From NCBI GenBank assembly GCA_030628225.1, contig DAOVRJ010000147.1, positions 1 through 6,478 of the forward strand: a stretch of 6,478 nucleotides of DNA, given 5' to 3'. Source of the DNA: Candidatus Zixiibacteriota bacterium (GTDB taxonomy: Bacteria > SM23-81). This document shows positions 2,616 to 5,315 of this stretch, one piece after another; the stretch's first letter is position 1, and each line of letters begins with the position of its first letter. Below the pieces are notes generated by a model that saw nothing but the letters and a program-made list of their open reading frames with translations, searched no databases and was not told the DNA's origin. Both the position numbers and the translations under genes were made by a program.

Positions 2616-3023
2616 TCACCCAAAAAGATCGTTTCCTCCTAACAAACACCTGGTCAATATACCAAGAAGCATAGCGCACAGTATGCTCGCCAGTGTGCCG
2701 ATCAAATAGTACTCGGCGAATTTGCGACTCTTTAGCTCCTCAAAACGAGCGATGGACTTGGCGGTAAATATCAATGCAATAGACGAATACTCCCCTATCA
2801 AAACAAGCGTTAAGACGAAAATCCTTTCCAGGACCCCGATGATAGCTCCAGCTCTCTTCAATCCTCCGTCCGGCAGTCGATACTGCCTTAAAATCAAGGT
2901 CACCACAAAATGTACCCCTCCTGTCGCTAACAGGTAGGAAACAAAATAGATTGCTATTTTAAGTACATGGTTTGAATGAATCATCGCTATTTGCTCGTCA
3001 AGTGCTTTGGCTTTACTCTTCAT
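2616..3023 (-). CDS. small integral membrane protein resembling the C-terminal half of DUF3307 proteins (satD partner)
   Basis: A 135-aa protein with a short charged N-terminus and about three hydrophobic segments (residues 20-45, 58-88 and 103-127), so predicted to sit in the inner membrane. The stretch from about residue 61 to 125 (IIGVLERIF, LIGEYSSIAL, AKSIARFEEL, RKFAEYYLIGTL) strongly recalls the C-terminal membrane region of DUF3307 proteins, which are often encoded next to satD. The usual N-terminal DUF3307 membrane domain is missing, and there is no room for it in the 152 bp before satD. Function is unknown. The first ATG (3023-3021) has no clear Shine-Dalgarno site and lies inside the palindrome array, so residues 3-9 are encoded by a repeat unit. 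A later start at Met14 (2984-2982) is possible. An in-frame TGA at 3029-3027 rules out extension. It could be a degraded remnant rather than a working gene. Confidence 0.65.
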   Translation of the reverse strand: MKSKAKALDEQIAMIHSNHVLKIAIYFVSYLLATGGVHFVVTLILRQYRLPDGGLKRAGAIIGVLERIFVLTLVLIGEYSSIALIFTAKSIARFEELKSRKFAEYYLIGTLASILCAMLLGILTRCLLGGNDLFG

Positions 3024-3159
3024 TTGTCAAGTTTTATTACTTGACCTTCGTTTGTCAGATGTTTTTACCTGACTTTTGTCTGTCAAGCGTTTTTGCTTGA
3101 CCTTACTTCTGTCAAGTGTTTTAGCTTTACTTCCTGTTTGTCAAGCGTTTTTACTTGAC
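2997..3159. repeat. six-unit tandem array of 20-bp palindromes, 28-29 bp period
   Basis: Units start at 2997, 3026, 3054, 3082, 3111 and 3140. Each is 20 bp, near the consensus GTCAAGYGTTTTTRCTTGAC, with 8-9 bp T-rich spacers. Each unit is an inverted repeat (GTCAAG ... CTTGAC) able to form a 5-7 bp hairpin with a 6-base loop. Unit 3054-3073 has paired changes in both arms (GTCAG with CTGAC) that keep the pairing. Units at 2997 and 3111 share a weakened right arm, CTTTAC. The array fills the gap between satD and the membrane-protein gene and extends 27 bp into the latter. It would be transcribed as a string of small hairpins. Possible roles are protein-binding iterons, a processing or stability element between two genes, or a minisatellite; none is proven. 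Confidence 0.9.
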
Positions 3160-3175: not shown

Positions 3176-3844
3176 CTATTTCTTCAAGTAGCTCTTAAGT
3201 AATTTGTTAACAAGATTATTCCCTGCCATGACGAGTTCCCAATGTGCGCCGATCAAAAACTGATATGCCGCCTGTCTTGTATAACCAAAATGCTTTCCCA
3301 GCTGCTCATAAGTAAAATTCGGATGCAGTCGATAATAACTCACTAATGCTCGCTGTCTTTCTGTCCATGAGTTTTCTAAAAGCTCAATGAAGCGGAGTAA
3401 TTCATTAATCATGTCATCCGTGGGATTGGGTGTACTTGAAGATTTGATGATGATGTTTCTCTTTTTCTTTTTACATACCTCTAATACATCTCTCGCTCTG
3501 TAAAAGGCGCTCCCCCTCATCCCCACTTCTTCATCTAAAAGTTTTTCAATAGCGCCGACACCGAGACCGCAATAGATATCCACCGGCAGTTTGCTTCTCA
3601 TGAAATTCAACAGCTCGATCGCTCTTTCGGGCGTCTTGATCGCCCCCTGAAATTCGTCTCCCACTGTCGGTGTAAAGCGAACGATGATCACATCGGAAAA
3701 TCTCTCGTTTGTCTCCTCAAGCACTCTTTTAAGTTCCCCGAAAAGATGTTCCCAATCGTCCAGTTCTCTTGAGCCTTTTATATCTCCGATAATCGCGCAA
3801 TTGCACGACTCCCCCTTCTCTCCACCATGCCGTATGTCTTCCAT
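3176..3844 (-). CDS. SatD-family protein: palm-like N-terminal domain plus C-terminal helix-turn-helix (222 aa)
   Basis: The first part contains AIIGDIKGSR (17-26), TVGDEFQGAI (60-69), GLGVGAI (93-99) and RGSAFYRARDVL (110-121). This order matches the SatD family, named from a Streptococcus acid-tolerance locus. The C-terminal part (about 158-205) has WTERQRALVSYY, then FTYEQLGKHFGYTRQAAYQFL (177-197), a sigma-region-4-like helix-turn-helix, which suggests DNA binding. My inference is that the N-terminal domain is related to the GGDEF/nucleotidyl-cyclase palm fold, with D21 and D63/E64 as candidate metal ligands; activity is unproven. No signal peptide or membrane segment, so cytoplasmic. The start is placed at ATG 3844-3842 because AAGGGGA lies six bases upstream; a TTG twelve codons earlier (3880) has only a weak site. 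The gene precedes the membrane gene by 152 bp of palindromes and follows phosphofructokinase by 113 bp. It is AT-richer than its neighbours. Confidence 0.82.
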   Translation of the reverse strand: MEDIRHGGEKGESCNCAIIGDIKGSRELDDWEHLFGELKRVLEETNERFSDVIIVRFTPTVGDEFQGAIKTPERAIELLNFMRSKLPVDIYCGLGVGAIEKLLDEEVGMRGSAFYRARDVLEVCKKKKRNIIIKSSSTPNPTDDMINELLRFIELLENSWTERQRALVSYYRLHPNFTYEQLGKHFGYTRQAAYQFLIGAHWELVMAGNNLVNKLLKSYLKK

Positions 3845-5052: not shown

Positions 5053-5114
5053 CCTGCTTCTCCTTCTGCGCTATTTTTTTATGAAAAGTTCGGAGAGTTC
5101 TGAGAGTTTTTTTG

Positions 5115-5150
5115 AACTCGGAGCTGGGAGCTCGGAGTGCGGAACTCGGA
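5115..5150. repeat. heptamer microsatellite, ARCTCGG x5
   Basis: Five 7-bp units in a row (AACTCGG, AGCTGGG, AGCTCGG, AGTGCGG, AACTCGG) with few mismatches. Just before it, AGTTCGG, AGAGTTC and GAGAGTT look like related or inverted fragments, and GAGTT (5104-5108) can pair with AACTC (5115-5119). It lies in the 5' region of the phosphofructokinase gene, about 65-100 bp before the start codon, and may be part of its leader. No function is evident. Confidence 0.75.
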
Positions 5151-5277
5151 ATAACAATGCAAAAGCCGAGACTCGAGAAAAGAAAGACTGATCCCGGATT
5201 CTGGGTGCTTGTTAAGAACTAAACCTCGGAAAATGCAGAGTCAAGCTGGCATACACTCAGAATCGAGCATTTCACTT

Positions 5278-5315
5278 ACCAGCATCCAGCATCCAGAATC
5301 CAGTATCTAGGATCC
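5278..5315. repeat. heptamer microsatellite, ATCCAGN, overlapping the DHH gene stop codon
   Basis: Units ATCCAGC (5284-5290), ATCCAGA, ATCCAGT, ATCTAGG (5305-5311) and a partial ATCC follow a leading ACCAGC. The fourth unit supplies the TAG stop (5307-5309) of the DHH gene, so the last residues and stop are made of repeat sequence. It shares the 7-bp period, but not the sequence, of the array at 5115-5150 in the same gap. The stretch between the two (5151-5277) shows no gene, clear promoter or terminator. Confidence 0.75.

Follow-up and report, generated by a model that had tools for sequence, protein, structure and literature searches.

The window, i.e. the complete stretch of 6,478 nucleotides from a Candidatus Zixiibacteriota genome that was analysed here, harbors on its minus strand the gene satD and, downstream of it, the gene of a small membrane protein, referred to below as the membrane partner. 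Between the two genes lies an array of six tandem dyads of about 20 bp, which is evident from the sequence and from repeat analysis (Tandem Repeats Finder score 138; Table 1). The start-to-start spacings of the units are 29, 28, 28, 29 and 29 bp, and the array is the longest among the 123 arrays scored in the current study. In a dyad pattern search the units starting at 3026, 3082 and 3140 were recovered as perfect GTCAAG-N8-CTTGAC dyads with 0 mismatches, and those starting at 2997 and 3111 with one arm mismatch each (GTCAAG...CTTTAC). The twelve half-sites alternate in direction about every 14 bp, with a distance of 14 bp within the units and of approximately 14.5 bp between them.

An initial annotation of this DNA had described six 20-bp palindromes with a period of 28-29 bp, placed them between satD and its membrane partner and reported a joint alteration of both arms (GTCAG/CTGAC) at positions 3054-3073. 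All of these observations were confirmed, with a single refinement that concerns the start of the membrane gene, for which ATG 2984 is more probable than ATG 3023. If the membrane ORF is read at its full length (2616-3023, minus strand), it includes unit 6; this unit lies just upstream of the conserved ATG 2984, about 12 bp from this start codon, so that the array fills the gap between the genes; the conservation of the membrane partner with its relatives starts near the equivalent of 2984. Matches to a sigma-70 promoter in the satD-membrane gap of the window are at chance level and none is convincing. A CRISPR array, which the annotation had already dismissed, was rejected on account of the 20-bp dyads, the short and similar spacers of 8-9 bp, the diverged repeats and the lack of a recognisable cas gene among the ORFs of the window.

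Table 1. Genes and repeat units of the satD locus (positions refer to the window; units are numbered along the gene strand)
Feature	Positions	Strand	Description
satD	3176..3844	-	Pfam PF16264, E=1.8e-16; ORF open from TTG 3880
Whole array	2997..3159	-	satD-strand units: GTCAAGTAAAAACGCTTGAC, GTAAAGCTAAAACACTTGAC, GTCAAGCAAAAACGCTTGAC, GTCAGGTAAAAACATCTGAC, GTCAAGTAATAAAACTTGAC, GTAAAGCCAAAGCACTTGAC
Unit 1	3140..3159	-	Nearest to the satD stop; perfect dyad
Unit 2	3111..3130	-	Single arm mismatch, GTAAAG/CTTGAC
Unit 3	3082..3101	-	Perfect dyad
Unit 4	3054..3073	-	Double arm change, GTCAG/CTGAC; prevailing arm type in the related genus (L031: GTCAGGCAAAAATGCCTGAC)
Unit 5	3026..3045	-	Perfect dyad
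Unit 6	2997..3016	-	GTAAAG...CACTTGAC; adjoins the start of the membrane gene; same variant as the final unit in the related genus
Membrane partner	2616..2984	-	122 aa, four predicted helices; ORF open from ATG 3023

A search of the genome with the repeat unit located the array at a single place. The degenerate dyad pattern retrieved the array and scattered single matches (109 vs. 104 for the reversed control pattern), and the exact dyad found outside of the array (G000:C270) is a lone site without a tandem neighbour in apparently coding DNA. A REP/BIME element or another dispersed repeat was rejected based on this unique location, and the scattering of units over the source genome, named in the annotation as grounds for refutation, was thus not observed. 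The one other genome of the family that was compared represents a sister genus (G001) and carries satD and its partner at the corresponding site, flanked by pfk and transketolase. Its gap contains five units instead of six; two of them correspond exactly to GTCAGGCAAAAATGCCTGAC and a third one nearly so. In these units both arms are altered together relative to most units of the window, as is the case in unit 4, and the last unit is common to both arrays. Another repetitive region of the window, at positions 5087-5315 upstream of the phosphofructokinase gene, consists of degenerate tandem heptamers and 14-mers (CTCGGAG, GAACTCGGAG..., CCAGCAT).

The two encoded proteins

The SatD protein of the window matches the profile PF16264 with 60.9 bits (cut-off 29), and the same family is recognised in all 55 of 55 aligned relatives. 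Its structure model (pLDDT 93) predicts a nucleotide-cyclase-like N-domain and a C-terminal helix-turn-helix (HTH) resembling sigma70 region 4. Residues 10-159 of the model adopt the palm fold of class III nucleotidyl cyclases and GGDEF proteins, and the comparison with adenylyl, guanylyl and diguanylate cyclases resulted in Z scores of 11-13 with an rmsd of about 3-5 Å over 113-145 residues (Foldseek E of about 2e-4). Two aspartates, D21 (99%) and D63 (100%), are conserved and represent candidates for the paired metal-binding aspartates of this fold; the model positions them where strand 1 ends and in the turn linking strands 2 and 3, respectively. The sigma70 region 4 profile (PF04545) is matched by 19 of the 55 SatD members with a best value of 4.6e-8 (E 0.017 for the SatD of the window itself), and profile matches of the HTH comprise YlxM, FliA and SigA. 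Searching solved structures by SatD sequence yielded matches at the level of the HTH only, and those to models of defence systems are weak.

Homology of the membrane partner of the window is restricted to the C-terminal part of longer partner proteins, some of which match DUF3307. The corresponding profile PF11750 covers the N-terminal part of the long proteins and does not match the 122-aa protein of the window, which is therefore designated as a DUF3307-type partner rather than as DUF3307. A fold search with this protein returned nothing significant and no recognisable solved relatives, and no relative was detected on viral contigs with the membrane-partner profile. A DUF3307 protein has been annotated in the Ralstonia jumbo phage RsoM2USA (ORF187; PMC8504454). 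The genome of the window contains a second, full-length DUF3307 gene (L234; G000:C151:3400-3717), which is accompanied neither by satD nor by an array.

Arrays at satD loci of bacteria and archaea

A scan of genome contigs with the membrane partner as query provided 80 loci from bacteria and archaea, and most of them exhibit tandem dyads of about 20 bp spaced at 28-29 bp in the gap upstream of the partner. The arm types are specific for individual lineages (GTAAAG..CTTGAC, GTCAACC..GGTTGAC, TTGAACC..GGTTCAA, ATAAGCC..GGCTGAC and ATTCGGC..GCCGAAT). In the discovery set of 90 loci, two similar dyads 28 or 29 bp apart occurred 57 times in 28 kb of gaps, 32 times in 26 kb upstream of satD and three times in the remaining 419 kb. 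With unchanged criteria a fresh set of 57 loci provided 68 matches in 16.7 kb upstream of satD, two in the 300 bp downstream and two in the remaining 154 kb. Sequence preceding satD could not serve as a negative control, since the arrays of coupled loci are located there.

The final survey was based on a combined score for 181 satD loci, 145 with and 36 without a DUF3307-type membrane partner, which cover many bacterial and archaeal phyla; archaea with satD and its partner include ANME-1, Halobacteria and Heimdallarchaeota. We found a tandem dyad array at 127 of the 145 loci with partner and at eight of the 36 without (Fisher P 5e-14), while none of 22 orphan DUF3307 loci harbors one and comparable dyad pairs at 28-29 bp occur in six of 461 control stretches. 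According to these counts the array belongs to the satD-partner pair. Locally shuffled target zones reached the score in 4.7% of cases, and at other spacings the same zones did so in 5 to 14 loci (about 6%); only 28-29 bp stands out. The 18 partner loci below the threshold partly reflect the strictness of the finder, and some of them are apparently free of arrays (L060, L142). The spacing of 28-29 bp is found at arrays everywhere, while the sequence of the dyad varies by lineage.

This constancy bears on the explanation that the array is a neutral minisatellite or a REP-like repeat that sits here by chance. The tandem copies and the change from five to six units between the sister genera are what such a repeat would show, but the single genomic location, the recurrence of the same period with unrelated sequences at satD loci across phyla and the coevolution with a SatD helix described below contradict it, and its probability is close to negligible.

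Several loci deserve separate mention. In L118 and L138 satD follows the membrane gene or is oriented opposite to it, and no array was found at either locus. The most uniform array seen comprises four near-identical TTGAACCCCCAGAGGTTCAA units in Stahlbacteria (L107, 2876-2991), possibly the result of a recent expansion. The phylum of G077 possesses second copies of satD (L211-L221, L062-L064), which form a separate SatD lineage without membrane partner and without arrays, whose HTH is kept and whose sequence is more conserved.

The localization of the array depends on the arrangement of the genes, which we classified as separated if the reading frame of the partner opens at least 15 bp after the satD stop and otherwise as coupled. 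The array is located between separated genes in 35 of 36 loci and upstream of satD in the remaining one; for coupled genes it precedes satD in 78 of 91 loci, and the other 13 arrays are found in the gap, overlapping the end of satD. What is constant across the loci is the position of the array upstream of the unit carrying the membrane gene. This position makes the membrane gene a candidate target of regulation; a tuning of the second gene of the pair was among the proposals of the annotation.

Probable SatD operators and the recognition helix

Pairwise distances between operators were compared with the distances between regions of the SatD protein. When the N-domain and the remainder of the HTH are controlled for, the divergence of the recognition helix is correlated with that of the operator (partial r 0.25-0.28); this value is stable over four levels of dereplication and was reached in at most 1 of 1000 permutations, which on distances model shared ancestry incompletely, an ancestry that the control regions have in common with the helix. 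Removal of near relatives lowered the partial correlation of the N-domain from 0.20 to 0.04, and that of the remaining HTH is close to 0. Among 93 sliding windows of ten columns over the whole SatD protein, the top one is the recognition helix (TRQAAYQFLI in the protein of the window) with an r of 0.278 compared with a mean of 0.001 and a standard deviation of 0.084. The sequences suggest a simple residue-to-base code in SKQ-type helices, for example with Q accompanying AAGC, D accompanying AGGC and K accompanying AACC, but several positions of the helix share the mutual information and a helix-base code is for this reason not claimed. Six genomes (G474, G583, G591, G623, G631, G702) contain two satD-partner loci with differing arrays. 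One example is G474, whose paralogues are associated with TGAAACA..TGTTTCA and GCAGATA..TATCTGC.

Iterated sites for the SatD HTH were one of two alternatives offered by the initial annotation, and the linkage to partner-associated satD, the tracking of the helix and the distinct operators of paralogues provide strong in silico support for it. The array is thus very probably a DNA operator of SatD, an estimate that extends neither to repression nor to a ligand. Since the binding of SatD is deduced from sequence comparisons, the sites could instead serve another host factor. This is very improbable, given that among all parts of SatD the recognition helix best predicts the half-site, that SatD paralogues of one genome are equipped with different operators and that orphan DUF3307 genes lack arrays.

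The second alternative of the annotation, serial RNA hairpins that tune expression of the second gene, was considered here as an effect of hairpins in the satD-membrane transcript on translation, termination or stability. The units can be folded as hairpins on either strand, their arms covary, and two of them were flagged as terminator-like; these matches are located on the plus strand and hence opposite to the genes. The mismatches within the dyads argue for DNA. RNA pairing would tolerate G-U over A-C, and the tally over 123 arrays showed no excess of G-U with 55 GU vs. 49 AC cells in 29 vs. 29 loci (43 GU and 41 AC in the first set). A.G, as in GTAAAG/CTTGAC, is a common mismatch of the core, and this pattern is what degenerate DNA half-sites give. 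The operator sequence moreover tracks the recognition helix of SatD, and the array shifts to a position upstream of satD in coupled loci. The hairpin chain is accordingly disfavoured and regarded as quite improbable.

Candidate mechanism and comparison with known systems

According to the scenario that we propose for the operator, SatD dimers would bind the six dyads through their C-terminal HTH, each SatD reading its own local array, which precedes the transcription unit of the membrane protein. The alternation of half-sites about every 14 bp could bring neighbouring dimers into contact, and they may bind cooperatively along the array. Array-bound SatD would most likely keep the membrane gene from being transcribed, either by control of a local promoter or as a roadblock. 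The nucleotide-cyclase-like N-domain might adjust binding in response to a nucleotide or metal ligand and thereby relieve or strengthen repression.

Repression appears more probable than activation because the last unit nearly reaches the start codon and no promoter was seen between them. The satD gene of Streptococcus pyogenes is reported to be essential in the genomes that carry it, and about 29% of genomes lack it (PMC11323703); by analogy, an essential yet accessory gene would be compatible with a SatD that represses a harmful partner. Activation by the SatD-bound array, for example through recruitment of RNA polymerase via the sigma-region-4-like HTH, is conceivable but less probable: the resemblance of the HTH to sigma70 region 4 in 19 of 55 members and the location of the array upstream of the controlled unit would suit it, but the last unit almost abuts the start codon in the window and at many other loci, which leaves little room for a downstream promoter, and the essential but accessory satD of S. 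pyogenes (PMC11323703) is more compatible with a repressor. It is also conceivable, though improbable, that the operator additionally serves as a scaffold, with a SatD filament of fixed length on the 14-bp alternating half-sites activating the cyclase-like domains, so that DNA-bound SatD would make or remove a nucleotide signal by which the membrane partner is controlled, in the manner of a guard or stress switch.

The Pfam family name derives from the streptococcal sat genes for secretion and acid tolerance (PMC11323703). In the papers found, SatD is discussed with respect to acid tolerance or essentiality only, and a DNA-binding role or operators, as proposed here, are not reported; DUF3307 appears once, as the name of a phage ORF. 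The literature search, which covered mostly non-subscription sources, retrieved no established function for SatD and its DUF3307-type partner and no earlier description of SatD operators, of which a prior account may exist elsewhere.

The combination of a GGDEF-type fold and an HTH in one regulator is shared with PucR/CdaR-type proteins such as MabR (Rv2242; PMC11617747), which is among the fold matches of SatD. The GGDEF-type domain of MabR is reported to be without catalytic motifs (PMC11617747). SatD differs from MabR in the predicted metal-binding-type aspartates (D21, D63), the sigma-region-4-like HTH and the iterated operator array. In the Panoptes system OptS-OptE a palm-fold nucleotide enzyme is encoded together with a transmembrane protein, an arrangement that recalls the satD locus; OptS is a minimal polymerase domain that acts via a cyclic dinucleotide (PMC12657218). 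The fold search with SatD retrieved an OptS structure (9pd0), a similarity confined to the palm fold. Unlike OptS, SatD possesses an HTH together with a probable operator array; it has no good match to defence models, and neither SatD nor DUF3307 is mentioned in the Panoptes paper (PMC12657218).

The operator array offers a concrete biochemical handle on an uncharacterised pair and presents SatD, in silico, as a local DNA-binding regulator. It indicates the sequence that each SatD would read and the gene that is most likely controlled, and a cyclase-like domain would thereby be wired to a transcription switch. The recognition helix, apparently re-aimed many times against a fixed geometry of 28-29 bp, provides a natural data set for HTH specificity.

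Autoregulatory arrays of tandem palindromes that are bound cooperatively are known from the repressors of toxin-antitoxin and plasmid-partition systems. The satD locus resembles these systems in that the gene of a small protein, predicted to bind DNA, has a partner gene next to it, and also in the iterated dyads at its own operon and the pair-specific sequence. It differs in the cyclase-like domain of SatD, in the membrane partner, whose toxicity is hypothetical, and in the strict period of 28-29 bp, which the SatD arrays of bacteria and archaea keep with dyads of unrelated sequence.
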